This document shows positions 3,673 through 61,033 of a stretch of DNA of 64,000 nucleotides, piece by piece; within the stretch, counting starts at the first letter, position 1, and each line of letters starts with the position of its first letter. The notes below the pieces were generated by a model. The model did no database searches. It was not told the DNA's origin and was given only the letters and a program-made list of their open reading frames with translations. The stretch is from Denitrovibrio sp. (GTDB taxonomy: Bacteria > Chrysiogenota > Deferribacteres > Deferribacterales > Geovibrionaceae). The translations under genes and the position numbers were made by a program. The stretch lies in the NCBI GenBank assembly GCA_002869145.1, contig PKTM01000026.1, positions 1-64,000 of the forward strand, given 5' to 3'.

Positions 3673-3977
3673 GAAAAGTTTTAATACTCGCAATTTTACT
3701 GATTTTTTACGGATGCGCCACAATGAGAGTGCAGCAAAATGACCAATCAGTGAAAATGAGCTTTAAAACAGAAGCAGAAGAAGTAATATTTTACAGTTCA
3801 GCGAACGGTTTCAAGCCTTTACAGGCCAGTAAAAACGGTGAATGGTGGACTGTTACAATAAATAATACAAAAAAGATGAAGTATTTTCTGAAAACAGATG
3901 AAAATATTTACATCCCTGAATGCAAAATGAAGGAGTTTGACGATTTCGGCGGCGAACTTTGTATTTATGAAAGGTGA
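3669..3977 (+). CDS. Small lipoprotein with E-set-like domain
   Basis: This 102-residue protein starts at TTG 3669, overlapping the stop of the anti-sigma gene, and begins MRKVLILAILLIFYGCATM with a lipobox ending in Cys16, so it is probably a lipid-anchored exported protein. The rest (VIFYSSANGFKPLQ, GEWWTVTI, KYFLKTDENIYIPE, then EFDDFGGELCIY) has the same strand order and the same DDFGGE ending as the outer domain of the preceding anti-sigma factor, so the two domains look homologous. It may be a partner or competitor for the same ligand. No direct function is known to me. Confidence 0.75.
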   Translation: MRKVLILAILLIFYGCATMRVQQNDQSVKMSFKTEAEEVIFYSSANGFKPLQASKNGEWWTVTINNTKKMKYFLKTDENIYIPECKMKEFDDFGGELCIYER

Positions 3978-3981
3978 TAAT

Positions 3982-5010
3982 ATGAAAAAGTTAATTATAT
4001 TAAGCATGTTAATTATTACGTCGGCAGGTTTAGCAAATGCCGAAACTATATATGAAAATCTTTACCAAAATGCTCTAAAAGCAGGTGTCAGTGAAAGCAC
4101 TTCCCGTATGCTTGCTGAAAGAACAGATAATGCCGGATTTAACGAACAGGACACTGCAAAAATATCAGAAGTAATCTCGGGTCTTTATAAAGCAGGCGCT
4201 CAAAGCGCAGCTGAAAAAGTTCTGGAAGGGATAGCGAAGAATATTGCTCCGGCAAGAATAACAAAAGCTCTTGAAAATGTACAAACAAGATATAACAAAG
4301 CTATGCAGATAGCTTCTCAGTCAGGAGTAGAAATGAAAAATCTAGAAACAGTTGCAGGTGTTCTTGCTGAGGCTATGGCTGCTGGGGCTGATGAGGATAA
4401 TCTTGCTCAAATATCAAAATCTATAAAAACAAAAGCAAGCGATAAAAACGACTACTCAGAGTCTGTTTTTGAGCTTTACAGAGATATGGTGCGTTATGGC
4501 GTGGACAACGATAAAACCTATGAGGTCACTACTAAGATGATGAATAACCTGACCAGCAACGAAATCAATAACCTTAAAACTAATTTTAATAAAAAAGCTC
4601 CGTACTCAAATGTTAATAATATGGCTGAAAGCATGGGTTATAATGCAGAGCAGGGGATGCGTGGATCATCTGGACAAGGAAGCATGGGTGGCTCTGGCGG
4701 TTCTGATGGTTCTGACGGTTCTGGAGGCATGGGAGGCTCAGGCGGCTCAGATGGTTCTGGCGGATCAGGCGGTTCTGGCGGAATGGGAGGTTCAGGCGGC
4801 TCAGATGGTTCTGGCGGAATGGGAGGTTCAGGCGGCTCAGATGGTTCTGGCGGAATGGGCGGATCAGGCGGTTCCGGAGGTTCTGGAGGCATGGGAGGCT
4901 CAGGCGGCTCAGATGGTTCTGGCGGAATGGGCGGATCAGGCGGTTCCGGAGGTTCTGGAGGCATGGGCGGATCAGGTGGTTCCGGAGGTTCTGGTGGTGG
5001 GAAAAGATAG
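3982..5010 (+). CDS. Secreted Gly/Ser/Asp-rich repeat protein 2
   Basis: This 342-residue protein starts at ATG 3982 (AAGGTG at 3971-3976) with a signal peptide MKKLIILSMLIITSAGLANA cut before ETIYEN. Residues about 21-225 are non-repetitive, charged and helix-rich with regular Ala/Leu spacing, perhaps an all-alpha domain. Residues about 230-342 are almost only Gly, Ser, Asp and Met in units such as GGMGGSGGSDGS, ending GGGKR. It closes the sigma/anti-sigma operon and shares the 12-residue Gly/Ser/Met period of the first protein in the operon. I infer an exported fibre- or matrix-like protein. No domain name is assigned. Confidence 0.8.
   Translation: MKKLIILSMLIITSAGLANAETIYENLYQNALKAGVSESTSRMLAERTDNAGFNEQDTAKISEVISGLYKAGAQSAAEKVLEGIAKNIAPARITKALENVQTRYNKAMQIASQSGVEMKNLETVAGVLAEAMAAGADEDNLAQISKSIKTKASDKNDYSESVFELYRDMVRYGVDNDKTYEVTTKMMNNLTSNEINNLKTNFNKKAPYSNVNNMAESMGYNAEQGMRGSSGQGSMGGSGGSDGSDGSGGMGGSGGSDGSGGSGGSGGMGGSGGSDGSGGMGGSGGSDGSGGMGGSGGSGGSGGMGGSGGSDGSGGMGGSGGSGGSGGMGGSGGSGGSGGGKR
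4777..5000 (+). repeat. 36/72-bp in-frame repeats in Gly/Ser-rich gene 2
   Basis: A 36-bp unit beginning GGCGGAATGGGAGGTTCAGG is present as identical copies at 4777-4812 and 4813-4848. A 72-bp unit beginning GGCGGAATGGGCGGATCAGG at 4849-4920 is largely repeated from 4921 onward. Period and phase (12 codons) match the repeats of the first gene in the operon although the base sequences differ. Confidence 0.85.
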
Positions 5011-5598: not shown

Positions 5599-6330
5599 TT
5601 ATTTGGAAATCTGCAGTTTGCGTCCGCTTTTCAAAAGCTTGATGGTATCTTCTTCGCTCATAGGTTTGGCAAAATAAAATCCCTGAATAAAGTCACAGTC
5701 CAGTTTCTTAAGATACTCCAGCTGACTCTTGTGTTCCACACCTTCTGCAATAACAAGCATTCCAAAGTTTTTGCCAAGAGAAATAATTGCATCTGTTATA
5801 TGCTGTTCGTCCTTGTTATCTGTCAGCTCTCTGGTGAAGGTTTTGTCTATCTTTATAATACTTATAGGAAATTCTTTAAGATAAGCCATTGATGAATACC
5901 CTGTGCCGAAGTCGTCCAGTGACAGTCTGGCTCCATAGGATTTCAACTCTTTCATAGTGTCGATGGCCGCTTTTACATCCTGAATAACAGTGTTCTCTGT
6001 TATCTCCAGAATGAGTTTGTGGGCGCGTATACCTGTTTTTTCTATAATATCTTTCACCTGATTAGGAAACACTGGGTTCTGAAACTGCCTGCTTGAAACA
6101 TTTACAGAAAAGCTAAGGTGTTCATAACCAAGCTTGTTTATCTTTTTCATTGTTTTACAGGTCTCGTTAAGAACAAATTGACCTATTGAATTTATTAGCG
6201 GGCTCTGTTCTGCCACATCTATGAAACTTCCCGGTAAAACAAGGGTTCCGTCGCTTTTCTTCCATCTGATCAGAGCCTCAAAACCTTTAATCTCGCCATC
6301 CCTTAAACTGACAACAGGCTGATAATACAT
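5599..6330 (-). CDS. EAL domain, separated from its GGDEF partner by one stop codon
   Basis: This is the cyclic-di-GMP phosphodiesterase half of what should be one 894-codon PAS-GGDEF-EAL protein. The frame upstream of the Met used here continues KREFV, RRALL and DL back to a TAA at 6367-6369, then straight into the GGDEF part. The EAL domain looks catalytically complete: FEALIRW, ILEITENTV, SLDDFGTGYSS, IIKIDKTF, VIAEGVEH and FIQGFYFAKPM are all present. The ATG at 6330 has a GAGAG about 6 bases upstream, so separate translation of a free EAL protein is conceivable. Otherwise this is a decayed 3' end. Confidence 0.8.
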   Translation of the reverse strand: MYYQPVVSLRDGEIKGFEALIRWKKSDGTLVLPGSFIDVAEQSPLINSIGQFVLNETCKTMKKINKLGYEHLSFSVNVSSRQFQNPVFPNQVKDIIEKTGIRAHKLILEITENTVIQDVKAAIDTMKELKSYGARLSLDDFGTGYSSMAYLKEFPISIIKIDKTFTRELTDNKDEQHITDAIISLGKNFGMLVIAEGVEHKSQLEYLKKLDCDFIQGFYFAKPMSEEDTIKLLKSGRKLQISK

Positions 6331-6366
6331 TACGAACTCTCGTTTAAGAAGTGCTCTGCGTAAATC

Positions 6367-8283
6367 TTATTCTAGCCCAAGTTTGTCAATATCGGATGTA
6401 TCCATCGACTTGTCATAAATAACGAAGTTTGCCTTCCCTTTTTGTTTTGCCTGGTACATGGCCATATCCGCAGCCCGCAGCAGGTCTGATGCCTCAGTTC
6501 CGTCTTTAGGGTAAAAAGATATACCTATGCTGGCGGACGGTTGAAGCCTGAAGTCATTAATAACGATAGCATCTGTAAAACTTTCAAATATTCGTTTAGC
6601 AACGTTTACTGCGCTATCTTCTGTCTCAGCATCAGGCAGCAAAATAACAAACTCGTCACCGCCTACCCTTGAAACAGTATCTTCTTCTCTGCAAGAATCC
6701 TGTAGAATACCGGCTATCTTCTGAAGATATATATCTCCAACGTGATGCCCGGCGGCATCATTTATGTGTTTAAAATTGTCTATATCTATGAAAATAATAG
6801 CTAATTTTGTTTTATGTCTGGTCGAAAATGCCAAAGCTCTCTCTATCCTGTCATGCAGCAGCCCTCGGTTAGGAAGTCCAGTCAGTCCGTCATGGTATGC
6901 CTGATGCTTCAGCTGCTCTTCATTTTGCTTAAGCTCTGTTATGTCATGGCTTACAAGTACAAAGTGCTGTATATTGCCGTCATCATCTTTAATGGTTGTT
7001 GCAGACACCCACTCAGGATATATCTCGCCATTTGACTTTTTACTCCAAACTTCACCAGACCATCTGCCATTTTTGAAAAGTTCCTTCTGAATATTGTAGT
7101 AAAAGGACTGAGGATGTTTTCCGGAGCGCAGTATCCGTGTTGTTTTACCTATTATCTCCTGAGGCAGATAACCTGTAATTTCTGTAAAAGCAGGGTTTAC
7201 TTTATCAATAACACCTTTGTTGTTCGTTATCACAATGCTCTCTACTGCTGTGTCAAAGATAATGCCCGTAAGCAGAAGCTGCTTTTCATATTCCTTTCTG
7301 TGTGTAATATCCCTGAAAATACCTTCTATAGCTGTGGGGTTGCCTACTGAATCAAATATAACCTTGGTGTTCATCTCTACTATCACAGGCGTGTTATCCT
7401 TTTTGCGAAGCCTTATCGCATAGTCTTTCACTTCTCCTTTTTCAGCAAGAGTTCTCAGAAATTTTGTGCGCTCTGCTTTGTCATAAAACATGCTCTGTCC
7501 AAGGCCATAGCGCTTCATCTCGTCTTCGTCATTATAGTCCAGAAGCTTAACTCCCGAAGGGCTTATAAGAGTGAGATTCCCGCGAATATCAGTACTGTAC
7601 TGAACATCCATAATGTTTTCAAACAGCGAACGAAACTTCTTCTCACTCTCTTTTACAGCGTCTTCTGAAACTTTCTTTTTTATAATATAATAAAACATAT
7701 AAAAGAATATGAACATTATGATGCCGCTGAAGATAACCATGTAGTAAGAGTTATATGAGAAATTTGAAATATCTATAAGCGCCCTTCTGCTTAAGGCGAC
7801 CTTATAAAAGGAGTTTATCTCACCCTCTTTCCATCTCGTGTGACATCTTGTGCAGTAAGCACTTGTAGTTACCGGGAAGTAGTAAGTATTATTGACCATG
7901 TCTGATATCTGAAGTTTATCGCTTAGTCCAATAACATTACTGTCATTTGTACCTTTTTTATCGTTATCAGATGAGTAAATAATCTTTCCCTCAGGCTTAA
8001 CAAGAGAAAATTCGTCAACATATTCATACTCTCCTATCTCATTAAGAAGATTGGTGAAAAGTCTCATATTGCCTTTTTTAAGAGAGTCATATGTGCTGCT
8101 GAAGATCATGTCCTGCAGATAGCTCATGTATCCTGTAAGTGATTTTTCTATAACCTGAAGTTTTTTGCGCTCGTATGCAATATTGAGCAAAACAAGGCAA
8201 ATAATTAAGAATGCAGCAAGCATTGCTAATATGATCTTTGAATCCAAATGTTTTGCAAATTGTTTGATTTTATACACGTACAA
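6367..8283 (-). CDS. Membrane heme-PAS-PAS-GGDEF diguanylate cyclase
   Basis: Residues about 17-37 and 181-202 are membrane helices enclosing a periplasmic domain that carries one c-type heme motif, CTRCH, at 144-148. Two PAS domains follow (about 213-330 and 338-455), then a GGDEF domain (about 460-623) with an intact GGDEF at 541-545 and an RxxD inhibitory site (REED, 532-535). It therefore should make cyclic-di-GMP. The likely start is TTG 8283, touching the stop codon of the hydrogenase small subunit (ribosome site AGAGG), so it belongs to the hydrogenase operon. The frame ends in TAA at 6367-6369, beyond which an in-frame EAL domain continues. A sensor for redox state or hydrogenase electrons is inferred. 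Confidence 0.88.
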   Translation of the reverse strand: MYVYKIKQFAKHLDSKIILAMLAAFLIICLVLLNIAYERKKLQVIEKSLTGYMSYLQDMIFSSTYDSLKKGNMRLFTNLLNEIGEYEYVDEFSLVKPEGKIIYSSDNDKKGTNDSNVIGLSDKLQISDMVNNTYYFPVTTSAYCTRCHTRWKEGEINSFYKVALSRRALIDISNFSYNSYYMVIFSGIIMFIFFYMFYYIIKKKVSEDAVKESEKKFRSLFENIMDVQYSTDIRGNLTLISPSGVKLLDYNDEDEMKRYGLGQSMFYDKAERTKFLRTLAEKGEVKDYAIRLRKKDNTPVIVEMNTKVIFDSVGNPTAIEGIFRDITHRKEYEKQLLLTGIIFDTAVESIVITNNKGVIDKVNPAFTEITGYLPQEIIGKTTRILRSGKHPQSFYYNIQKELFKNGRWSGEVWSKKSNGEIYPEWVSATTIKDDDGNIQHFVLVSHDITELKQNEEQLKHQAYHDGLTGLPNRGLLHDRIERALAFSTRHKTKLAIIFIDIDNFKHINDAAGHHVGDIYLQKIAGILQDSCREEDTVSRVGGDEFVILLPDAETEDSAVNVAKRIFESFTDAIVINDFRLQPSASIGISFYPKDGTEASDLLRAADMAMYQAKQKGKANFVIYDKSMDTSDIDKLGLE

Positions 8284-9228
8284 TTACTCAAACCTCTGCT
8301 TCATTGCTGACCAGGGAAGGTCTTCAACATCGTTTACATCCAGATATATATCAGAGTTAAAAGGCCATCTTTTATGAATACAGCCGACACACGGGGTGTT
8401 ACTCTCAACACAAACACTTGTTTTCCTGTTCCATCTTCTGGTGGGACAGTCGGAATAAGTAATTGTTCCTCTGCAGCCTTTTTTCAGCAGGCACGCCTCT
8501 TTTTCTCTGTCAAAATCTTTTAAATAAATGTCCTGAGTGAAAAACTGGTGTCTGCTGCAGTGATTATGGATAAGATCTTTATAATACATTGCGGGTTTGT
8601 CATGAACCAATGGCGGGAAAGCACCTGTAGCTGCTATATATGCTACAGTCCCCATAAGTCTATCAGGGTTAACAGGGCAGCCGGGAACAATAATATGGGG
8701 TTTATTTACCCCTTTTTCTTCCATAATCATATTAACAGACACAGCTCCGGTGAGGTTTTCGCCTGAAGCAGGTATACCACCGTATGATGCGCAGGTTCCT
8801 GATGATATAACCATGGAAGCCCTCTGCAAAATATCTTCGATGCGGTCATATAACGGGGAATCTCCCAGATAGCAGGCCTCTTTAATGATTGTCGGTACAG
8901 GCCCTTCAACCACAACAATGCAATTACCACTGTCGAGAGCTTCCTCCATCCTTTCCAGATATGCATCCCCTTGACTAAAAGAGAGTGTCGGGTGCACCTG
9001 AAGGTTGATAACACGCAAGATGAAATCCAAAAAACCTGATTCGTTGCCATATGTAAGCGAAACAGAGCAGCCGGCACAGCTTAGGCCATGTATGAAAACC
9101 ACATTCGGCTTTTCAGCATCAGAAAGTGCAACAAAGCCCTCAGCTACCTGCGGAGCAAATATCTCACTGCCGAAAGCGGTTAATGAAACACCTGCACACA
9201 TCTTCATAAATGCTCTTCTGCTTAGCAT
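8284..9228 (-). CDS. [NiFe] hydrogenase small subunit, Tat-exported
   Basis: This is the iron-sulfur subunit that carries electrons away from the NiFe site. I chose ATG 9228 (AGGAG just upstream), giving 314 residues that begin with a Tat signal, MLSRRAFMKMCAGVSL. An upstream in-frame start at 9261 would bury the twin arginines. Cluster ligands are visible: GLSCAGCSVSLT and GTCASYGG and GCPVNPD (proximal), HCSRHQFF with GCRGTITYSDCPTRRWN (distal/medial) and CVESNTPCVGCIH. There is no C-terminal membrane helix, unlike many membrane-anchored uptake enzymes. It lies downstream of the large subunit, the reverse of the common order, and is followed at once by a heme-PAS-GGDEF sensor. Confidence 0.93.
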   Translation of the reverse strand: MLSRRAFMKMCAGVSLTAFGSEIFAPQVAEGFVALSDAEKPNVVFIHGLSCAGCSVSLTYGNESGFLDFILRVINLQVHPTLSFSQGDAYLERMEEALDSGNCIVVVEGPVPTIIKEACYLGDSPLYDRIEDILQRASMVISSGTCASYGGIPASGENLTGAVSVNMIMEEKGVNKPHIIVPGCPVNPDRLMGTVAYIAATGAFPPLVHDKPAMYYKDLIHNHCSRHQFFTQDIYLKDFDREKEACLLKKGCRGTITYSDCPTRRWNRKTSVCVESNTPCVGCIHKRWPFNSDIYLDVNDVEDLPWSAMKQRFE

Positions 9229-9236
9229 AGACTCTC

Positions 9237-10613
9237 CTAATGAACCGCACAAGCTACGCACGGATCGAAGCTTCTCACTATTCTACCAGCAACAATACTA
9301 CTGTCTTCTTTATCAATTACACTGCCGTTAAGTGCGCCTTCCACTATCCCAGGTTCTTTTATTCCGGGACCGAAGTTCCATGTGGACGGAACTATCATAT
9401 TATAACCTTCTATTTTGCCGTCTTTTACTATTGTTTTATGGTAAAGCATCCCTCTGGATGCTACAGATAATGCAGTACCTTCACCTGTTAGCATAATTGA
9501 AAGATCAGGGTTATTTATTGTGGATTCGTTCAGTCTGTATCTGTTCAAAATTTCACTTACATAATCCGCTATCTCTATTGATTCGGAGGCTCTGGAAAGT
9601 ATCCTTGTTGCCACTGAAGAGACATATGGATCAGTTTTATGTCTGGCACACATTTCGAAATATGTTTTACTTTTCTTAATAACAGCCCTTGCAACTGGTC
9701 CTGTCTCAAAGGACTGTCCGTTATATTGCGGTGTTTTTATCCAGCTGTATGCATTTTTCTTCTCAGGGTCAGGAAGGTTCTCATTTGTTATAAATGTAGA
9801 TGTGTTCACTTCTGCAATCATATCAGTATCAAGCGCACTTAAGACACCTTCACTGAAAACGCCCCCTTTAAAAAGAGGTTCGTCTAGCATTAAAAAAGAA
9901 TCAGCAGATATGAACCTCCCATATGAGATGCCTTTGTACCTGTACTCAGGAAAATAATCCAGGAGAATATCTGCATCACTCTTCATGGTTTTAGTGAGAA
10001 AATTATAAACATCATGTACAACACTGCGGATTTTCAGAAGCTTGTCGGGAGTTATGCTTGTAGTCACACCGCCTGGAAGCAAAGCGTGACAGAATGGCGT
10101 TTTTGCACCTATGGATGCCAGAGCCTCACCCAGATTACCACGCATATTTATAGCTGCCTTATAGTTATCTATAAAATTTGAAGTGAGTTCTTTCTCAGTT
10201 ATGAATTTTGCTTTAGCACTTGAGGAAAAATATCCTGATGTTTTAGAAAGAGCAGAAAAATCTACATAATCAGGAACCATTAGTTGGTAAAAATGTATCA
10301 TATGATCGCTGATAATGCTAAGTCCGAGTATTATATCTCTAAGAAGTGAACCGTTGAATGGGGGCTGTATCCTGTAAAGATCCTCCACTGCCATACAGCT
10401 AGCGACACCGTGCACTTCATGACAAACACCGCAAACCCTCTGTGTAATACGTACTGCGTCAAACGGATGCCTCCCTTTCAGAAAACTCTCAAACCCTCTA
10501 TACATTGTTCCTGCAAGCTTAGAGCCTGTTATTTTATTGTCAGAAATAGAGTAGTCGGCTTTCATGTGGCCTTCTATCCGTGTCAGAGGATCAACTTTTA
10601 TTCTTTCAGCCAT
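9237..10613 (-). CDS. [NiFe] hydrogenase large subunit without C-terminal extension
   Basis: The 458-residue catalytic subunit has both NiFe-binding motifs: RVCGVCHEVH with Cys61 and Cys64, and the C-terminal DPCVACAVH with Cys452 and Cys455. The Arg/His context resembles periplasmic group 1 enzymes. The protein stops exactly at the His after the second motif, so there is no peptide for the usual maturation endopeptidase to remove. This is typical of H2-sensing regulatory hydrogenases and unusual for energy-yielding ones. Export would depend on the Tat signal of the small subunit, whose gene begins 8 bases further on. No hyp maturation genes and no cytochrome b partner are in this window. Confidence 0.93.
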   Translation of the reverse strand: MAERIKVDPLTRIEGHMKADYSISDNKITGSKLAGTMYRGFESFLKGRHPFDAVRITQRVCGVCHEVHGVASCMAVEDLYRIQPPFNGSLLRDIILGLSIISDHMIHFYQLMVPDYVDFSALSKTSGYFSSSAKAKFITEKELTSNFIDNYKAAINMRGNLGEALASIGAKTPFCHALLPGGVTTSITPDKLLKIRSVVHDVYNFLTKTMKSDADILLDYFPEYRYKGISYGRFISADSFLMLDEPLFKGGVFSEGVLSALDTDMIAEVNTSTFITNENLPDPEKKNAYSWIKTPQYNGQSFETGPVARAVIKKSKTYFEMCARHKTDPYVSSVATRILSRASESIEIADYVSEILNRYRLNESTINNPDLSIMLTGEGTALSVASRGMLYHKTIVKDGKIEGYNMIVPSTWNFGPGIKEPGIVEGALNGSVIDKEDSSIVAGRIVRSFDPCVACAVH

Positions 10614-10794
10614 AAGCTCTCACCAATAATTTTAAAATCTCTTTGTTTATGTCTAGTTAATATACAAACACAGTTATACTATATCAACATATATTTCATA
10701 ATAATACCTGTTTTGGAAGAATATAAGAAAGTTATATTGTAACTTACACAAAGTTAACCTATTCTTTCCTTAGGCAGTATTTCGGGAGGATGAG

Positions 10795-12234: not shown

Positions 12235-12304
12235 AACATAAGCAGACAAAGGTTTGATTGGGGTGACACATTGCCTGCCTACTGCCCCGCAATTTAAAAT
12301 TTAT

Positions 12305-12601
12305 TTAATTGTCTAATATCTTATTCATCATGTATTTAATATCTCTGAAAACGAAAATATCTTTACCTTTCATAAGACAATAAATAGGCCAGCCAACTTC
12401 TGCTCCAGATATCTTTGCTTCTCCGTTAGGCAGAAGAAGTGAAACAAGCCTGTTGCCTGAACGTATGTTCATGCTTGTGGTTATGTTCCCTACGTCTATA
12501 TCTTCGCAGACACCTTTTATAAGTTTATAGCCTTTATTGCTTAGAAGTTCAGCGGTTTGTGCCGTCATTTTGTTCTGAGACATGTTTTGTGAAAACTGCA
12601 T
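12305..12601 (-). CDS. Small protein following nifB, unknown
   Basis: This 98-residue cytoplasmic protein follows nifB by 15 bases on the same strand, with a good ribosome site (GGGAG, 8 bases before ATG 12601). It has no signal peptide or membrane helix. The C-terminal half (SGNRLVSLLLPNGEAKISGA, VGWPIYCLMKGKDIFVFRD) reads as a small beta-rich domain. I do not recognise a family. Its place at the end of the nifB transcript suggests a nitrogenase accessory role, which is guilt by association only. Confidence 0.65.
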   Translation of the reverse strand: MQFSQNMSQNKMTAQTAELLSNKGYKLIKGVCEDIDVGNITTSMNIRSGNRLVSLLLPNGEAKISGAEVGWPIYCLMKGKDIFVFRDIKYMMNKILDN

Positions 12602-12616
12602 TTAATCTTCTCCCTT

Positions 12617-13963
12617 TTATGCGGTCACTTTTGAAATGCTATCGTTCAATCTTTTTATCCCCACTGACCAAGCAGCGTCTTCCAGGAGTTTATATCCCCC
12701 AGTAGTATCAATTATGACACCTCTTCTGCGCATCTCTTTTACTGCGCTCTTTCCGGCAACAGAGCAAACAACCACTGAGCAGTCACTAAGAAGTTCAAGC
12801 ACATTCTTAAGGTGTCCAGAAAGCTTTATGCATGCTTCGCTGTCTTCATATTTTAGAGTGCGTATCTCTCGAAGATGCGCTCCCCATCCGGATACTTCAT
12901 ATACGTAAAATGTCCGTGCGTTCTTAAATGTAACGTCAGACATATATTTATTTTCAGTAGCAACAGCAACCAGAATCATCTTGTTTCTGGAAGCTCTTGA
13001 AGAGTTTTTAGTCACAGATTCAGATGCTAAACTGCGTGAAATGCTCATCACTTGAGATTTAACAGTGGCAGAATTCTCTATGACTTCATCAGAGAGGCTG
13101 TTTATATCAAACTCTTCTCCCAACTTGCCAATGGCATCCGCTCTGCACTGTCTGCAATGCTGCATAACACTGTCGAAACCGCCCATTATTTCAGCACATT
13201 CAAAACGTGCCTTTGCTATCATCTTAATGTCTGGTTCCGGTACTCCTTCCTTTGCAAATTTCGTGCCGTATTCCGGTTTGCTCATGAGAGGGATTATATT
13301 ATGTATAAAAACTCCAAGCTCTTTTATTTTCTTTGCTACTTCTGAAATGTGTAAGTCGTTGATACCAGGGATAAGAACTGAGTTAATCTTTACAAGCACT
13401 CCTTTGTCTACCAACATCTTTATACCTTTAAGCTGGCGTTCAAGCAGTATCTTAGCTGCCTCCACACCTTGGTATGTGACCCCTTCATAATGTATCCAGC
13501 TGTATATTTTTTGACCGATTTCAGGATCTACTGCACTAATTGTGACCGTTACATGACTGATGCCAAGCTCAACTATCTCATCTATATGGTCTGGAAGGTT
13601 TAGCCCGTTTGTGCTTATGCATGGTATAAACTCGTTATTGTATGCTTTCATAAGCCTAAGTGTCTGAAAAGTTGCAGAAGGATTAGCAAGTGCATCTCCA
13701 GGCCCCGCAATGCCTATAACACTGAGGTTCTCCAAAGACTGCTTTACCATAATCACTTTTTCGAGAGCCTGCTCAGGACTTAAAACGCCGCTTGTAACCC
13801 CTGGTCTTGATTCGTTTGAACAGTCATACTTCCTGTTACAGTAGTTACACTGAATGTTACAGGCGGGAGCAACAGGGAGATGTATCCTTGCAAATTTGTC
13901 GTGTGCGTCCTTACAGTAACACGGGTGTTTCTCAATTCTTTCTTTTACAGTGTCTTTATGCAT
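12617..13963 (-). CDS. nifB: FeMo-cofactor biosynthesis radical SAM protein NifB with NifX-like tail
   Basis: NifB uses two [Fe4S4] clusters and S-adenosylmethionine to build the NifB-co core of FeMo-co. ATG 13963 is chosen (GGAGG upstream), giving 448 residues beginning MHKDTVKERIEKHPCYCKDA. The radical SAM motif CNIQCNYCNRKYDC is near residue 35-48, with VIGIAGPGDALANP and other SAM-barrel motifs following, and a Cys pair HCRQCRADAIG at the barrel end. From about residue 315 a NifX/NafY-type cofactor-binding domain follows (ILVAVATENK, VVCSVAGKSAVKEMRRRGV). A -24/-12 promoter lies at 13985-14000 and a NifA-type site at 14045-14060. Confidence 0.96.
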   Translation of the reverse strand: MHKDTVKERIEKHPCYCKDAHDKFARIHLPVAPACNIQCNYCNRKYDCSNESRPGVTSGVLSPEQALEKVIMVKQSLENLSVIGIAGPGDALANPSATFQTLRLMKAYNNEFIPCISTNGLNLPDHIDEIVELGISHVTVTISAVDPEIGQKIYSWIHYEGVTYQGVEAAKILLERQLKGIKMLVDKGVLVKINSVLIPGINDLHISEVAKKIKELGVFIHNIIPLMSKPEYGTKFAKEGVPEPDIKMIAKARFECAEIMGGFDSVMQHCRQCRADAIGKLGEEFDINSLSDEVIENSATVKSQVMSISRSLASESVTKNSSRASRNKMILVAVATENKYMSDVTFKNARTFYVYEVSGWGAHLREIRTLKYEDSEACIKLSGHLKNVLELLSDCSVVVCSVAGKSAVKEMRRRGVIIDTTGGYKLLEDAAWSVGIKRLNDSISKVTA

Positions 13964-24232: not shown

Positions 24233-24679
24233 TCACAGTATTTTCGGGATATCCCCTTTATTTAAAACGATAAATCTGTCGTCAAGGATGGGCGCAATCT
24301 CATTTATTACCGTTGACGGACGAAGGCCTCCGAACCCGCAACCGGGCAGAGGCATATATACTTTTTCCCAGCCTTGTTTATCTGCCAGCCTCTTCAGCTC
24401 TTCGGCGGAACGCTTCACAAGCATGATATCTGCTTGTGATGTCCAGGTCTCCTCCACAGGGAAGCTGATAAGCATCTCATCTATATGGTGAACATGATTG
24501 CCAAAGTTTGTCACTAGATAGCCAAGTTTTTCTGCTAGCCAGCTAACTGCTTTGCCGACTTCTTTTGCATTGCCGCGCCCCAGGTTCGCCTTGCCGTCCT
24601 TTTTTACTGTTCCATTTGTAGTAACAACAACAGGGGCTTTCCCTATGTAATCAACTAAATTTGCAGTTTCAAATTTCAT
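24233..24679 (-). CDS. Macro-domain ADP-ribose binding protein
   Basis: This 148-residue single-domain protein begins MKFETANLVDYIGKAPVVVT and has macro-domain features: VVVTTNGTVKKDGKANLGRG with the ADP-ribose loop, NAKEVGKAVSWLAEKLG, and a late PLPGCGFGGLRPSTVINEI phosphate-binding loop. Such proteins bind or hydrolyse ADP-ribose, its esters or O-acetyl-ADP-ribose. It overlaps the end of the DraG-like gene by 11 bases, so the two are coupled. I infer that it deals with ADP-ribose released when DraG demodifies NifH, or removes modification from another target. Enzymatic activity cannot be judged here. Confidence 0.82.
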   Translation of the reverse strand: MKFETANLVDYIGKAPVVVTTNGTVKKDGKANLGRGNAKEVGKAVSWLAEKLGYLVTNFGNHVHHIDEMLISFPVEETWTSQADIMLVKRSAEELKRLADKQGWEKVYMPLPGCGFGGLRPSTVINEIAPILDDRFIVLNKGDIPKIL

Positions 24680-25562
24680 CTGTGTACCTCACTGGGATAT
24701 CCATAAGTTCTCTGCACTGTATCCTTATAGCTCTTAAAACTTCTGTATCTATCTTTTTTGTCCATTTGGCCGGTATGCTGGAATAGCCGTAAAGTGCTCC
24801 TGCCATCATTCCGGCTATAGCGCCGTTAGTGTCAGCATCTCCCCCCTGATTCACCACGCCAACGAGTATTTTCTCGAAACTGGTTTCATCAGAGAAGTAG
24901 TGCATAACGGTTTTGAAAGTATCAACTATATATCCTGAAGACTCACCTTTGTATCTTGAATAAGAAAATTTGGGATTAATCTTTATAAGTCTGTTTGCAA
25001 TCTTCAGAGCATGCAGTTTGTCGCCTGTCTCTAAAAGTATTTTAGTCATCTCGCCGAAACAAAGTGTTATAAGGTCAGATTTTTTATTATTATGTGTAAG
25101 GTGAGACTGCAGCCTTGTCATCTGTTCAAAATATCCCCACTTTTTCAGGCAATATATTATAAGGGGCAGGTTTCGCATGGCAGCACCGTTTCCGGCGGCC
25201 ATCTCCGATTCCATCTGGACGGTTATCCCTTTCAGCATATAGTCCCTGATACCTTTTCGCACAGTGCTGCCTATGTCAACAGGCTTTGACCTCATCCACT
25301 GCACATAATGATCCCCTATGCAGTTCAAATTAAACCCCTGAGACTTTATAAGGCTGTTGCCCAGTGCCAGACTCATCTCGGTATCATCTGTTACACGTCC
25401 CGGTTTAAGCCTCAGCCAACCTCCTCCGGTGATCTTATTGTGGACACCTATGTTGACCTGTATCTCTCTGGGAGTCATAAACTCAGTAGTGGCTCCGAGG
25501 GCATCGCCCACTGCCAGCCCCACATAGCTGCCAAGAATTTTGTCATGTATATCATTTTTCAT
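24669..25562 (-). CDS. draG: ADP-ribosyl-dinitrogenase reductase hydrolase (DraG-like)
   Basis: A 297-residue ADP-ribosylglycohydrolase that removes ADP-ribose from an arginine, reactivating NifH when fixed nitrogen is scarce. The two metal-binding motifs are present: PGRVTDDTEMSLALG near residue 55-68 and NQGGDADTNGAIAGMMAGAL in the C-terminal third, with an AAGNGAAMRNLPLI segment between. ATG 25562 is chosen; an upstream TTG at 25568 adds two residues. It is divergent from the draT-like gene (35 bp apart) rather than cotranscribed with it, and cotranscribed with a macro-domain gene. Confidence 0.93.
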   Translation of the reverse strand: MKNDIHDKILGSYVGLAVGDALGATTEFMTPREIQVNIGVHNKITGGGWLRLKPGRVTDDTEMSLALGNSLIKSQGFNLNCIGDHYVQWMRSKPVDIGSTVRKGIRDYMLKGITVQMESEMAAGNGAAMRNLPLIIYCLKKWGYFEQMTRLQSHLTHNNKKSDLITLCFGEMTKILLETGDKLHALKIANRLIKINPKFSYSRYKGESSGYIVDTFKTVMHYFSDETSFEKILVGVVNQGGDADTNGAIAGMMAGALYGYSSIPAKWTKKIDTEVLRAIRIQCRELMDIPVRYTDEI

Positions 25563-25597
25563 TTGCAAACTCTGTTAACTTCTTTCATGATTCATTT

Positions 25598-26416
25598 ATG
25601 AGCATAAAGAAAAAGACCATTAGTAAGCTGAGCGACCTTAAAAGGTTTTATCACTTCACAAACCAAATCAATATTCCTACCGGAATGTTTGTGAGCAACG
25701 AATACAACCTGAACGTTCTCCCTATAACCATCAGCGGCGTGTGGGAATATTACAGTGATATCTTTAATGCTATTAAAAAAGCTGGAAACATTGAAGATGC
25801 AGCCTACATTTTCACAGGCGCTATGAACTCTCTGTTTTCTCTCTCCGAAAAGCACAACGGGAAGAAGCTCGGAAGCTATACCAGACTCCTCAAAGGGTGG
25901 CTTTTTGATTCTAACAGTGTCGAAGGCGCTGTTTTGAAAGGGTGGGTGGAGAGCCGATTCGGCATTACTCCTTTTTTTCATAAAGAGATTATTCCTGACG
26001 TAAACTCCGAACAATACTACGAATATATGGTAGAGAAGATGAACATTAAGCATAATAAAAACCTTATTTTTCATCAGCTTGACCTCCTGTATACATATAC
26101 TCAGGTAATCCTCCACACATTTTATAAAGAACAACTTCCCAAGCTGACTCTCTACAGGGGAGTTAATGATCTTTCAGAGCATCTGGTTGTCAAAGAACTG
26201 TCTGATAGAAACTTTTGCATTGAACAAAACTCACTTGTTTCATTCACATCGGACAGGGACATAGCCTCCCAGTTCGGAGACTATATCCTAACATCCTCTA
26301 TACCTTATACAAAAATAGTCTTCTTTTCAGAGCTTCTGCCTAATGTTAAATTCACCGGCGAGAAAGAATTTCTTGTCCTCGGCGGGCGGTATGACACAGA
26401 AGTTAGCTACTATTAA
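25598..26416 (+). CDS. draT: NAD+-dinitrogen-reductase ADP-ribosyltransferase (DraT)
   Basis: This 272-residue enzyme inactivates NifH by attaching ADP-ribose to a conserved arginine in response to ammonium or darkness/energy signals. Recognisable parts are FYHFTNQINIPTGMFVSNEY at the start, LLKGWLFDSNSVEGAVLKGW, LTLYRGVNDL (the R of the R-S-E triad), NSLVSFTSDRDIASQFGDYI, and the catalytic end GEKEFLVLGG. The length is standard for DraT. Together with the draG-like gene and the Arg101 site in NifH, reversible control of nitrogenase is very likely. Confidence 0.93.
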   Translation: MSIKKKTISKLSDLKRFYHFTNQINIPTGMFVSNEYNLNVLPITISGVWEYYSDIFNAIKKAGNIEDAAYIFTGAMNSLFSLSEKHNGKKLGSYTRLLKGWLFDSNSVEGAVLKGWVESRFGITPFFHKEIIPDVNSEQYYEYMVEKMNIKHNKNLIFHQLDLLYTYTQVILHTFYKEQLPKLTLYRGVNDLSEHLVVKELSDRNFCIEQNSLVSFTSDRDIASQFGDYILTSSIPYTKIVFFSELLPNVKFTGEKEFLVLGGRYDTEVSYY

Positions 26417-27401: not shown

Positions 27402-29015
27402 ATGAATGCAAATTACTATAAAACCGCTTTAAACAGTATTTATGAAATAAGCGTTATACTTAACAGCTCCAACATGGTGCAGCACTCACTTTACAGATCA
27501 CTGCTCCAGATGGCTGACACTCTTTCTATGTCCAGAGGCGTTATACTCCTTATGGATAAAGAAACAAACGAGTTGGTTGTTGAAGCCTCCATAGGGATCG
27601 GCACAGAGGAGCACCCAGTTAAACGCACAAGGTACAAGACTGACGAAGGTGTTGTAGGCAAGGTTTTCAGCTTAGGATTGCCAATACTTATTCCAGACAT
27701 CTCAGAAGAGCCTCTCTTTTTGAATAAACTAGGCCGAATTAAATCAGACGAGGAGATCAGCTTTATCGGTGTACCCATAAAGCACGAGGGTGTGACATAT
27801 GGTGTTTTAGCTGTTGATAAGGTCGTCTCCAAAATGTATTCCATCACTACAGATGTGGATATACTAAAGATGATATCCACACTAATGGCATCTTACCTAT
27901 ACAAAATACAGTATTTCGAAAGCCAGATAGAGGCCATAGAGCAAGAACGTGCCCGTATTGAAGCTGAAAAGATGAAGCTTATGGGTGAAGTGAGCAAGAA
28001 ATATCAGTTTGAAGGACTTGTTGGCTCTGGAAGGCTAATGGGAAAGGTTCTTGATAAAATCCAGATGGTAACAGCCTCTGATTCTGCTGTTTTAATACGT
28101 GGTGAGAGCGGAACAGGCAAAGAGGTTGTTGCAAAAACAATTCATTACAACAGTGTACGCAGCAAAAAGCCTTTTGTAGCTGTAAACTGTGCGGCTATCC
28201 CTGGTGAGCTTATAGAGAGTGAGCTTTTTGGATATTCTAAGGGTGCATTCACAGGCGCAGCGGGAGAAAAAAAGGGTAAATTTGAGCAGGCAGATGGCGG
28301 AACAATATTTCTGGACGAAATAGGCGACATGCCTATGGAAGCTCAGAGCAAGCTTTTGCGAGTTCTTCAGGATAAAGTTGTAGAAAAACTTGGTGGAACC
28401 AGACCTGTTCAGGTTAACGTTCGAATACTTGCGGCCACAAACAAAAATCTTGAAGTTTATGTTCAGTCCGGAGAGTTCCGGCTTGACCTTTACTACAGGC
28501 TCAACGTGTTTGCGATATTTCTGCCGCCACTCAGAAAAAGAAAAGAAGATATACCTTAGATCGCTCATCATATAATAAAAAAGCTCAGCAGTCGCTACGA
28601 TAAAAATTACTCAATAACAAATGAAGCTTTAACAGCATTAATGGGATGTAATTATCCGGGTAATATCAGAGAGCTGGAAAACTGCATAGAGAGAGCCGCC
28701 TTCACAGCCGTTAACGGAAATATCAAACCGAAAGACATTTCATGTCAGCGTGGAGAGATGTGCCTGTCTAACCTTATGGAAAAGAGCATGTCGACTGAAC
28801 AGTCTAAACAGCACATATCACCACAGCCTATTGATAGCTTTGATGATGACAGCACAGAATATTTCAGCGAAGACTTGGACGAAAGAGAGCGTGTGGTTCA
28901 GGCGCTTGAAAAAGCAGGATGGGTACAGGCAAAAGCTGCCAGAATGCTGAACATGACAGTCCGTCAGATGAACTACCGCATCAAAAAATTTGATATCACT
29001 GTAAAAAAAATATAA
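27402..29015 (+). pseudogene. nifA: Nitrogenase regulator NifA with one in-frame stop
   Basis: The frame encodes a 537-residue NifA interrupted by TAG at 28557-28559. The N-terminal GAF domain covers about residues 10-165. The AAA+ domain (from about 208) has GESGTGKE (Walker A), GAFTGA (sigma-54 contact), [12 protein letters not shown] (Walker B) and RLDLYYRLNVF. After RKEDIP comes the stop, then the same frame resumes IAHHIIKKLSSRYDKNYSIT, the sensor II segment NYPGNIRELENCIERA, a linker, and a C-terminal HTH (GWVQAKAARMLNMTVRQMNY). Homologues usually have Leu at the stop position, so TTG to TAG would explain it. Truncated NifA would lack ATPase sensor II and DNA binding, leaving all sigma-54 nif promoters here without their activator unless the stop is read through or the base is wrong. 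Confidence 0.88.
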
Positions 29016-46529: not shown

Positions 46530-47866
46530 TTTAAATCCTTTATTTTCTGTATATATCTATCAACACTGAACTTTGATCTGCAACCATTGTAGTTCATGTA
46601 GCGTATCTTTCCAAAAACCGGTCTGTTTTGCCATGCTCTGTCGTGCACCCCGCAAATAGACCATGCAACCCCCGTGTAGCCATTCGGATCACGACCATCC
46701 AGCGAATATTTGTCATTCAATGCCAGAGCAGTATCAAATGCGGTCTCAACATCAGGTGTCCACTCCAAAATCTTCTTTGCCCAGTACATACGCATATATC
46801 CGTGCATTTTTCCTGTTATAAGCATCTCCTTCTGGGCAGCGTTCCATAGTTCGTCGTGTGTTCTTGCCCGTTCAAACTCATCAAAACCGTAAATGTATTC
46901 TCTGGTATCGTCCCTGTGCTCTTCAATGGTCTTTTTAGCCCAATCGTGTGCGCCAGCTACACTGTCGTAGTTTTCATTATAAAAGCAATAGTTCTCTGCC
47001 AGCTCGCGTCTGACTATGAGCTCTTCCAGAAAAGCATTAATATCATCCGGTGACCAAAAAGCCTCTTTAGCGTTTAGAGCCACCCTCTGTGCAGAGATGT
47101 TGCCGAAATGCAGATATGGGGATAGATTTGATTGGTTATCAAGATTCGGATCGTTACGTTTAGCACTATACCCATTCAGCCCGCCTGTCAGAAAGTTCCG
47201 CAGCTGATCATCAGCGTTTTTTATTCCGGCAGGGTAAAATTCGTTAGGTTTCCCGAATGAGTTAATGATGCGATCCCAGTCTATGTGAGCCACATGACCT
47301 TTCCATTCAAATTTTTGCCTGCGCAGCTCAGGAAACTCCACAAGAAACTGCGGAAGAAGTCAGTTTATCTTGGGTCTGATGGTTCTGGCTGCGAACTCCT
47401 CTTTGTGGCTGGCCATACGACAAGGCACTATGTTATGGGCATCCACCTCTATTACAGGAATATTTATTGATAAGGCAAGTTCGCTTTTCATTTTACGGCT
47501 GTGTTTCAGTGGAGAAAAATCTGTAACGACAGCGCCTGCACCTATTTGTTTGATAAATTTGTTGAGCTCAGAAACAGGGTCGCCCTGAAGCATAAAGAAG
47601 GGTATTTTCAGATCTTCGAGCTCGTGGTCTACATCACAAAGACCTTCTGTCATAAAACGAAAATGCTCATGGGAAGCGCTAGGGTAGTCTGGAATCAGGC
47701 AAAATACTATACACACTGCGCACTGACGGCTCTCGGCCAGATGAAGCGCTTTAATGAGTGCCCAGTTATCACGAACACGCATATCTCTGGACATCCAGTA
47801 GATAACCGGTCCGCCAAAATATGTCACACCTTGATTTAATTGATGCTCTCGCCTGATGTCTGTCAT
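46526..47866 (-). pseudogene. phr: Class II CPD photolyase with one in-frame stop
   Basis: The full frame (446 residues) is a class II deoxyribodipyrimidine photolyase, which repairs UV-made pyrimidine dimers with light and FAD. An N-terminal antenna domain (GPVIYWMSRDMRVRDNWALI) is followed after TIRPKIN by TGA at 47360-47362, then LLPQFLVEFPELRRQKFEW continues in frame. The FAD and DNA-binding half has YLHFGNISAQRVAL, MHGYMRMYWAKKILEW and LDGRDPNGYTGVAWSICG, all class II hallmarks. The family usually has Lys or Arg at the stop; CGA to TGA would explain it. The product is split at residue 168 unless the stop is read through. Confidence 0.9.
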
Positions 47867-58549: not shown

Positions 58550-60187
58550 TTACTTGATCAGCTCCTCAGCCGGTGTCGGTGATGGAAGTCCAATCTTTAT
58601 TGCTTTTGAAAGCGGTGTGTTAGGATCGTTCAGGTTAAGCTCCATAACTCTGCGCTTATTGTACTCTTTCCACATTGGATGCTCAGGGAAGTTTTTACCG
58701 AGATACTGATCACGGTTGTCATATCTGTTCTTCCAGAGAGCAAATGCGTCATCAGAAAGGAAACCTTTCTTGTAAGCCTGCTCAACGTTTGCAGCTATCT
58801 TCTCCCAGTAGTTAGGGACGATCTGATAAAGTGCAGGAACATCAAACTGCTCGGCTGTCACTACAGAGAAGAGGGAACCAGGGATATCATATAGCTTGTA
58901 AGTGAAGAATTTCGCAGGAGAATCTGATTCATAGATCTTCTTAGCTTCTTCTACACCGTGCTCAGCACCCCATGCTATCATTTCCTGAAGATTATGCTGG
59001 AGTTCCCAGATACCGTGCCACTGTACATAGTCTGCAGCAGCCATGGCGGATCCCATACGGAACCTTCTGCCTTCGTGGTGCCATGAGTTATACATAAGCT
59101 CAGAAGCTGTTGTGTACCAGCTGCCGTTGATAACTGTACCGGAGTATGTCTTCTCTTCGCCTGTGGCAACTACTTTATCTTTAAGTACTTTCACAAGACC
59201 CAATGCCTGATATTTCTTGATCCAGTATACGAACTGTCTTCTGATTTCGTTGTACTGAAGGTTTACAAGGTCATATGTAAGGATATACTCATCTATAAAT
59301 GTAGGAGAGTGGCATGAGTAGCAAGCAGCCTTCATACGGTCTGATTTCTCTTCCCATGTACCTAGCTCTTCTTCGTACCATATAGTTCTGTATGACCAAG
59401 GAGCCTGAGCTTCCCATGCTAGACGCTCTGATACGTTGTGTGTAGACATAACTTTTGTACCAGGAACTGCATCCATGTGGCATGTGGAACATACTGGAGC
59501 TTCTATAGGAATTCTGTCGACCTCTTCTGAGTCATAGCTGAGATCCCATTTGCTGCCTTTAGCTGCGAAGATGTTACCGTGCTTTGATTCATAATAGATC
59601 TCTTTCTGTGGATGGTCAGGACCGAGGTGACACTCACCGCAGGTATCAGGGTTTCTTGCTACTGATACGTCAAAGGAGTGTTTTGTGTGACATATGTCGC
59701 ACTCACCAACTGATCCGTCAGGCCACATAGCTGAAAGGTTGTGACAGCTTTCGCAGCCCTGCTTTGTACCAACTATAGGCTCAAAAACTGATCTGTCAGC
59801 AGAAGCCATAAGCCAGAAAGGATAAGCGTGTTTTGACTTTGTGTGCTCTTCAACTTCTTTTTCGTGGCAGCTTGCGCAGTCTTTTGGTGTCGGGTGCGAA
59901 GCGATTACCGGGTGTCCGTTCTTTGTAAAGGCGTCAAAATCGCCTTTCTCAGCGGAGTGGCAATCCATACATCCGATACCGTTTTTAGCGTGTGCGCTTT
60001 CTGCGTACTGGTCGTGGATCTTCGGAGCAATCCGCTCATTTTCGTGGCAGGTCACACATTTCTTGGATTCGCTGTCTAGATCGATGTCTTTGTAGGAAGC
60101 TGCGAATGCGCTGCTTGCTGCAAACATCATAACCAATGCCATCAAGAAAAGTCCGGCCTTTGGTAAAACAAATGAATACTTTTTCAT
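58550..60187 (-). CDS. Octaheme cytochrome c, hydroxylamine oxidoreductase-like (HAO family)
   Basis: A 545-residue exported protein: signal peptide to about residue 30, then eight CxxCH heme motifs at residues 44, 73, 104, 145, 163, 183, 233 and 289. The spacing and the heme-free helical C-terminal half (SWHHEGRRFRMGSAMAAADY, WHGIWELQHNL) match the HAO family rather than NrfA, whose active site uses CxxCK. Members either oxidise hydroxylamine or, in several anaerobes, reduce nitrite or hydroxylamine to ammonia. Whether the crosslinking Tyr of oxidative HAO is present needs alignment. A divergent two-component system with a heme sensor starts 150 bp upstream. Confidence 0.9.
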   Translation of the reverse strand: MKKYSFVLPKAGLFLMALVMMFAASSAFAASYKDIDLDSESKKCVTCHENERIAPKIHDQYAESAHAKNGIGCMDCHSAEKGDFDAFTKNGHPVIASHPTPKDCASCHEKEVEEHTKSKHAYPFWLMASADRSVFEPIVGTKQGCESCHNLSAMWPDGSVGECDICHTKHSFDVSVARNPDTCGECHLGPDHPQKEIYYESKHGNIFAAKGSKWDLSYDSEEVDRIPIEAPVCSTCHMDAVPGTKVMSTHNVSERLAWEAQAPWSYRTIWYEEELGTWEEKSDRMKAACYSCHSPTFIDEYILTYDLVNLQYNEIRRQFVYWIKKYQALGLVKVLKDKVVATGEEKTYSGTVINGSWYTTASELMYNSWHHEGRRFRMGSAMAAADYVQWHGIWELQHNLQEMIAWGAEHGVEEAKKIYESDSPAKFFTYKLYDIPGSLFSVVTAEQFDVPALYQIVPNYWEKIAANVEQAYKKGFLSDDAFALWKNRYDNRDQYLGKNFPEHPMWKEYNKRRVMELNLNDPNTPLSKAIKIGLPSPTPAEELIK

Positions 60188-60337
60188 ATACTATACCTCC
60201 TGTTGTAACTATTTAAAGTTTAAAGATAATATTTAAAAGAAGGTGTAAAGTATGTTGAGTGGATGTAAAAGATGAAAAGAACTTGTCTTAACATTTTTAA
60301 CAGGTACTTTTATTGTTAATTGAGGTAAAAATAATAT

Positions 60338-61033
60338 ATGAGTAAAAAAATATTAGTCATTGATGATGATCCGGATATTCTTGAGGTCTTAAGGCTGCTT
60401 CTGGGTCTTGAAAACTATGAAGTGACCACCGCTCTGAGCGGCATAACTGGCCTTTCACTTGCAAGAGAAAACAATCCCGACATTATAATATTAGACCTGA
60501 ATCTTCCTGATATTGACGGGCAGCAGATATGCAAAATAATCAGAGGTGAACTGAACGTTCCCATACTTATATTATCAGCGAGAGACAACGTGTCCGACAA
60601 AGTCGTATGTCTGGAGTACGGCGCAGATGACTACCTTACCAAACCATTCGAAAACATAGAGCTGATAGCAAGAGTGAAGGCCATCTTAAGAAGATCAGAG
60701 AAAGCTGATAATCATACTGAAGGGGACGACTCGGTAGTTGTTTTCCACCACCTGAGCATCGACAAATCAAGCCGGCAGGTTTTTTCGAAAAATGAAAAGA
60801 TCAGTCTGACACCAAAAGAGTACGAGATTCTCCTGTATTTCATTAATAAAGCAGGACAAGTATTGTCCAGAGACGACATTGTTAACGATATATGGGGTAA
60901 AAACTCTATATATTCATGGTCAAGAAGCCTTGATGTCCACATCAAGAACCTCAGACAAAAGATAGAGATTAACCCTAAAAATCCGGACATAGTCAGCACT
61001 GTCTCCGGAGTTGGATACAAGATTAAAAAATGA
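60338..61033 (+). CDS. OmpR-family response regulator
   Basis: A 231-residue regulator: receiver domain with VIDDDPDILE, LDLNLPDIDG (phospho-Asp) and GADDYLTKPF; and a winged-helix DNA-binding domain (LTPKEYEILLYFINKAGQVL, SRSLDVHIKNLRQKIE, VSGVGYKIKK). The stop overlaps the ATG of the kinase gene (ATGA). It faces the octaheme cytochrome gene, which it may control. Confidence 0.95.
   Translation: MSKKILVIDDDPDILEVLRLLLGLENYEVTTALSGITGLSLARENNPDIIILDLNLPDIDGQQICKIIRGELNVPILILSARDNVSDKVVCLEYGADDYLTKPFENIELIARVKAILRRSEKADNHTEGDDSVVVFHHLSIDKSSRQVFSKNEKISLTPKEYEILLYFINKAGQVLSRDDIVNDIWGKNSIYSWSRSLDVHIKNLRQKIEINPKNPDIVSTVSGVGYKIKK

Follow-up and report, generated by a model that had tools for sequence, protein, structure and literature searches.

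What does a hydrogenase do when its genes run directly into that of a transmembrane haem receptor? The question is raised by a locus in a 64,000-nucleotide stretch of a Denitrovibrio sp. assembly (GCA_002869145.1, contig PKTM01000026.1), referred to below as the window, which lies on contig 23 of a 2.88-Mb genome that is 99.4% complete. On the minus strand, from 10613 to 5599, the window encodes in succession a [NiFe] hydrogenase large subunit, its small subunit and a sensor with a periplasmic haem motif and PAS, GGDEF and EAL domains. We consider it likely that this operon is an H2-sensing module, in which an exported hydrogenase signals, probably via haem reduction, to interchangeable outputs, here acting on cyclic-di-GMP.

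The three genes (Table 1) are closely packed. The large-subunit stop codon (9237-9239) is followed after 9 bases, as counted, by the small-subunit ATG (9226-9228), and the sensor start abuts the small-subunit stop, so that one transcript is likely. The large subunit carries RIEGH besides its two nickel-ligand motifs and stops directly after the final His of DPCVACAVH, as an earlier note made from the letters of this DNA had claimed. The same note had described the small subunit as a protein with a twin-arginine translocation (Tat) signal and no membrane tail, in agreement with its N-terminus MLSRRAFMK, its match to TIGR00391 (hydA) above the cut-off and the lack of any hydrophobic segment found. 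Its Cys residues 261, 273, 280 and 283 are present together with the proximal and distal cluster ligand sets, which suggests a medial cluster with four ligands. When the neighbouring genes in the window were read, no cytochrome b, protease or hyp gene was found adjoining the trio, the first and last of these as previously noted, and hypD of this genome lies on a different contig. For the sensor, the gapless junction, CTRCH motif, two PAS domains, GGDEF with RxxD site and EAL domain all stood, and two transmembrane segments flank the CTRCH motif, but an in-frame TAA that cuts off the EAL domain had been missed. The GGDEF and EAL active-site motifs are intact (EALIR, NVSSRQ, EITE, DDFG, IKID and EGVE in the EAL part), and cyclase and phosphodiesterase activities are predicted from them.

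Relatives were searched with each of the three proteins as a separate query, and all three queries returned identical loci. The order large subunit, small subunit, haem receptor was found in 13 Deferribacterales genomes at 17 loci (four genomes carry two); the large subunit ends at its last His in all 17, and the small subunits examined are all Tat-type and tail-less. The window genome has a second copy of the trio on contig 14, with a methyl-accepting chemotaxis protein (MCP) as receptor. Three Chrysiogenaceae genomes possess the same trio with an MCP bearing two haems, and the receptor domains of the two groups are homologous (hhalign probability 98%, E 6.7e-14). Of 297 genomes from a second phylum (centre G073), 15 carry in all 18 loci, which were picked out by a large-subunit profile and, independently, by the pattern DPCxxCxxH-stop, the receptor not being used in selection; a Tat small subunit and then a haem receptor follow in 17 of these, and the remaining locus lies at a contig edge. 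The receptor of locus L243 was seen on read-out. A sensor accompanies tail-less Tat-type large subunits but none of 11 tailed ones (Fisher p 9e-8); in this scoring L246 and L248 were entered as negative, as the signature list lacked their kinase type, and both carry a haem kinase receptor. The search for the three-gene order, proposed in the earlier note, yielded more than 30 loci in all, and all its parts have matches in curated families at E <= 1e-20, so the trio is not a chance arrangement; it is a recurrent receptor module, not one operon. Its persistence in Deferribacterota and in the second phylum supports the sensory reading, which loss of the sensor gene from relatives would have contradicted.

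Beyond these groups, the tail-less large subunits inspected outside Deferribacterota, in the first 385 genomes, were of the cytoplasmic type with non-Tat small subunits; the phyla around G248 and G158 were sampled by 6 and 12 genomes only, too few for inference. A PLSDB search returned distant hydrogenases only. An exact-peptide scan of genome contigs with the large subunit was discarded, having returned only distant, tailed enzymes. One module of the window's genus (G001, L044:4533-5954) has a transposase-like open reading frame (ORF) between small subunit and receptor, with a second copy at 12236-12973; its small-subunit C-terminus is unlike those of relatives, and the module looks interrupted.

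Classification of the large subunit against [NiFe] groups 1 and 2b, another check suggested at the outset, placed the module outside both tailed group 1 and the HoxC/HupV clade. The Deferribacterales large subunits form one clade (100/99), in which the window stands beside a Flexistipes-like pair (98/95) that shares its output type. A joint tree of both subunits sets apart three groups: the module, the tailed group 1 enzymes, and a group 2 made up of HoxBC, HupUV and a kinase-linked enzyme from the same family. When the second phylum was added, 20 tailed enzymes formed one clade (98/99) with all 33 sensor-linked rows outside it, a position that would allow the sensing type to be older than, or an early split from, the group-1 respiratory hydrogenases. 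A single origin of all sensor-linked large subunits was not rejected (approximately unbiased test p 0.113; p 0.22 for two groups). A clade of HoxC, HupV and the L147 enzyme (100/100) excludes the module; a grouping of module and group 2 had support of 54/82 in one tree and was absent from the combined tree. HoxC and HupV themselves end at the final His, as the earlier note had stated of regulatory hydrogenases. The locus L147:8020-12562 (G007, same family as the window) represents a second kind of sensory hydrogenase, with a small subunit lacking a Tat signal, a large subunit with an 11-residue tail, a 671-aa histidine kinase and a receiver protein.

The receptor domain was modeled by AlphaFold2 as a long helix and a Cache-like sheet, with CxxCH (144-148) in a short helix (142-147) between strands 131-139 and 156-165, before the last strand. 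This arrangement, with CxxCH inside a periplasmic fold of the Cache type and ahead of its final strand, matches the description of sCache_heme domains. The best Foldseek matches were WalK-type Cache domains, with the c-haem sensor GSU0935 among those listed; a PDB sequence search with the domain gave nothing significant, and Pfam PF11845 (Tll0287-like) did not match the receptor at E 0.01.

Behind this domain the outputs vary. According to Pfam, the usual one is a methyl-accepting chemotaxis domain and sometimes a histidine kinase; in the window's family the MCP outputs are short or carry a CZB domain. In the second phylum, the nine outputs examined are MCPs, and L248 has Hpt and histidine-kinase ATPase domains. 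PAS-PAS-GGDEF-EAL was assigned only to the window, the Flexistipes-like pair and G002, a genome whose sensor has no hydrogenase. The GGDEF-EAL output, on which the cyclic-di-GMP claim for this operon rests, is the minority form. Large-subunit clades track output type (GGDEF-EAL, short MCP, MCP with CZB), the hydrogenases of two-module genomes sort by receptor type, and, within the module, the distances between hydrogenases parallel those between receptors (r=0.95). The permutation control for this value leaves shared ancestry in, so the correlation supports co-evolution and does not prove it.

We propose that the exported hydrogenase, matured without C-terminal proteolysis, would split H2 in the periplasm and hand the electrons on, along the Fe-S relay of its small subunit, to the c-type haem that the receptor carries in its Cache domain. 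The haem redox or ligand change may then alter ligation and shift the transmembrane helices, as proposed for Geobacter receptors, and this movement would set the PAS-GGDEF-EAL output, H2 thereby tuning cyclic-di-GMP up or down. The same front end would drive chemotaxis receptors, and occasionally a histidine kinase, in other genomes. The H2/H+ couple lies at about -414 mV at pH 7. Midpoints of -156 and -251 mV were measured for related c-haem receptors (PMC8396549), above that couple, so electron flow from H2 to such a haem would be downhill. H2 as the signal, a hydrogenase-receptor complex and this electron path are all inferred.

Several observations weigh against this proposal. G002 has an intact receptor of the window's branch without the hydrogenase pair, orphan haem MCPs of the same domain family have no adjoining hydrogenase (L108 in G001, L086 in G022), and a receptor can therefore persist without a linked hydrogenase. 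In G002 the sensor adjoins pyruvate kinase, as the window hydrogenase does, and the upstream regions of the two align locally with a score of 66, whereas 200 shuffles reached no more than 45; the simplest account would be that G002 lost the hydrogenase pair and kept the receptor. The window large subunit also sits on a long branch and has an 18-residue gap, and haem-Cache domains linked to signalling can act as nitric oxide (NO) sensors (PMC12889525). A CHxxW signature was tried as a marker of hydrogenase-linked receptors and rejected, being present in orphans and absent from some linked receptors.

An unlikely alternative is that the hydrogenase senses H2 but signals by contact or conformation, in the manner of HoxBC and HoxJ, with the haem serving a structural role or setting a redox baseline. 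HoxBC is thought to work via interaction with its kinase HoxJ (PMC6978683), and co-evolution of hydrogenase and receptor suits contact as well as electron transfer; however, CxxCH is present in every module receptor examined, a motif dispensable for a domain that served docking alone, and the small subunit retains the Cys/His ligands that a complete Fe-S relay requires. It is quite improbable that the receptor is instead a periplasmic sensor of NO (or of O2 or redox state), whose haem the hydrogenase keeps reduced or to which it reports H2 together with a second gas. Tight NO binding by haem-Cache domains fused to signalling modules (PMC12889525) and the retention of the receptor in G002 agree with such a role, which alone leaves unexplained why a dedicated, tail-less hydrogenase pair stands beside the receptor in two phyla. 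It is very improbable that the enzyme is an ordinary uptake hydrogenase of the periplasm, serving energy conservation and placed beside a haem receptor by chance. The small subunit does match group-1 type models, and the PDB enzymes closest to the large-subunit profile are periplasmic [NiFeSe] hydrogenases; but the tail is missing in all members, no protease adjoins, nor any cytochrome b or other separate electron partner, which the earlier note had named as a mark of uptake homologues, the adjacency is conserved in two phyla, the tailed respiratory enzymes branch as a clade of their own (98/99), and the window genome has a further hydrogenase with tail and protease.

The in-frame TAA between GGDEF and EAL raises the question of whether the sensor is one protein. 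In G002, the closest sensor (65% over the first 341 residues), GCT occupies the TAA position in a continuous 892-aa frame, and the sensors of the Flexistipes-like pair are uninterrupted at 886 and 888 aa. The EAL part is constrained like the other domains (proportion of nonsynonymous differences, pN, 0.24 vs 0.19-0.27), with the synonymous counterpart pS saturated. Within the window, two more genes are interrupted by an equivalent single stop, TAG in a nifA-like gene and TGA in one for a photolyase, the frame being intact on either side, and 200 kb sampled elsewhere in the assembly (L262, L261, L264) contained the same kind of stop in groEL, mutS, uvrA and mtnA; the halves of groEL, mutS and uvrA abut in their family profiles with one position missing. 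None was noticed in the loci of seven relatives. Stops of this kind across the genome point to sequence errors, or to a nonsense load, in the assembly. Since these genes carry the same type of stop, the TAA is most likely an artefact, and the sensor is probably a single 895-codon gene. A functional GGDEF/EAL split at this site was rejected as the default in view of the like stops in groEL, mutS and uvrA, as was a single change of genetic code, since TAA, TAG and TGA all occur.

Table 1. Coordinates of the hydrogenase-receptor trio and associated features in the window
Feature	Position	Strand	Evidence
[NiFe] hydrogenase large subunit, 458 aa, without C-terminal peptide	9237..10613	-	ORF; PF00374 E 1.5e-79; module clade 100/99
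N-terminal nickel-ligand motif RVCGVCHEVH	10410..10439	-	sequence
C-terminal nickel-ligand motif DPCVACAVH, stop codon immediately after	9237..9266	-	sequence and pattern match
Hydrogenase small subunit, 314 aa, Tat signal, without membrane anchor	8284..9228	-	TIGR00391 above cut-off; PF14720; PF01058; no transmembrane segment
Tat-type signal SRRAFMK	9202..9222	-	sequence; RR invariant in small-subunit alignment
Sensor, TTG start, transmembrane segment, periplasmic haem domain, transmembrane segment, PAS, PAS, GGDEF; 638 aa to in-frame stop	6370..8283	-	
Periplasmic Cache-like domain	7750..8163	-	AlphaFold2 predicted local distance difference test (pLDDT) 84; Foldseek: WalK first, GSU0935 haem domain 3b42 among matches
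CTRCH haem c motif	7840..7854	-	sole such motif between the two transmembrane segments; CxxCH invariant in 19 homologues
Two cytoplasmic PAS domains	6934..7641	-	PF13426, two stretches
GGDEF domain, RVGGDEF intact, RxxD upstream	6421..6912	-	PF00990 E 4.6e-49
Stop codon TAA, in frame, separating the GGDEF and EAL domains; probable sequence error	6367..6369	-	
EAL domain in the sensor's frame; possible restart ATG at 6328-6330	5599..6366	-	PF00563 E 2.2e-77
Divergent upstream region common to operon and pyruvate kinase; resembles region before the G002 hydrogenase-less sensor	10614..10794	-	local alignment
Single in-frame stops elsewhere in the window	28557-28559; 47360-47362	+; -	

Elsewhere in the window, genes for dinitrogenase reductase ADP-ribosyltransferase (DRAT) and ADP-ribosylglycohydrolase adjoin the nif cluster (24672-26416); DraT/DraG is a known nitrogenase switch. 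A multihaem cytochrome gene lies divergently to the genes for a response regulator and for a haem histidine kinase of the Tll0287 type (58550-62595), and Gly/Ser-rich repeat proteins (1780-2556 and 3937-5010) flank a sigma-factor-like gene and its neighbours.

Among known systems, the module resembles HoxBC/HupUV (group 2b) in a large subunit that ends at the final His and an adjoining signalling gene. However, HoxBC/HupUV are cytoplasmic and act on the PAS histidine kinase HoxJ, whereas the small subunits of the window and aligned relatives carry the RR of a Tat signal, and the partner in the window is a transmembrane haem receptor with GGDEF-EAL. HydDB (PMC5037454) lists group 1 as entirely respiratory, 2b as kinase-linked, 2c as putatively diguanylate cyclase-linked and [FeFe] C2 as putatively chemotactic. 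H2 control of cyclic-di-GMP had thus been proposed for group 2c, likewise with a GGDEF gene beside the hydrogenase, and the statement of the earlier note that it knew of no described system with this layout needs to be narrowed; no group 2 member is described there as periplasmic or haem-coupled. The MCP versions of the module have a parallel in the [FeFe] C2 hydrogenases, whose partner is likewise a methyl-accepting protein but which belong to an unrelated enzyme family. Periplasmic group 1a [NiFe]/[NiFeSe] enzymes share Tat export and a soluble heterodimer with the module and are its best PDB profile matches; they are respiratory, whereas the sensor-linked large subunits lack the C-terminal peptide and a cytochrome or quinone partner in the operon and fall outside the tailed clade. 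The sCache_heme/Tll0287-type receptors, DcrA, GSU0582 and GSU0935 (PMC12889525, PMC8396549) have a periplasmic Cache/PAS-like CxxCH domain fused to an MCP, kinase or GGDEF-EAL output, as here, but are not described with a hydrogenase, a word absent from PMC12889525. In the literature searched, mostly without subscription journals, no description was found of a haem receptor coupled to a [NiFe] hydrogenase of the periplasm. The ideas of H2-to-cyclic-di-GMP and H2-to-chemotaxis signalling are not new, and the earlier suggestions concern other enzymes; the exported, haem-receptor-coupled architecture appears undescribed.

For Methanococcus maripaludis, chemotaxis towards H2 was demonstrated (Brileya et al. 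2013, as cited in PMC4266047), and in a sulfate reducer H2 disperses biofilm and raises motility, for which hydrogen chemotaxis was suggested (PMC12004927); no bacterial receptor for H2 taxis was identified in the literature searched. The module offers a concrete candidate, with an enzyme as the ligand-binding part of a transmembrane receptor and exchangeable outputs behind it. The trio is probably a widespread, so far unrecognised bacterial route of H2 sensing. On balance, we favour the broader view that the trios make up a class of their own among sensory [NiFe] hydrogenases, periplasmic and hitherto unrecognised, which occurs in at least two phyla and provides the H2-detecting subunits of transmembrane haem receptors; such receptors would be those still missing for taxis towards H2 and, on the branch that includes the window, would place cyclic-di-GMP under H2 control. 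If this is true, sensory hydrogenases extend from the cytoplasm to the periplasm, with a bearing on syntrophy, corrosion and underground hydrogen storage.

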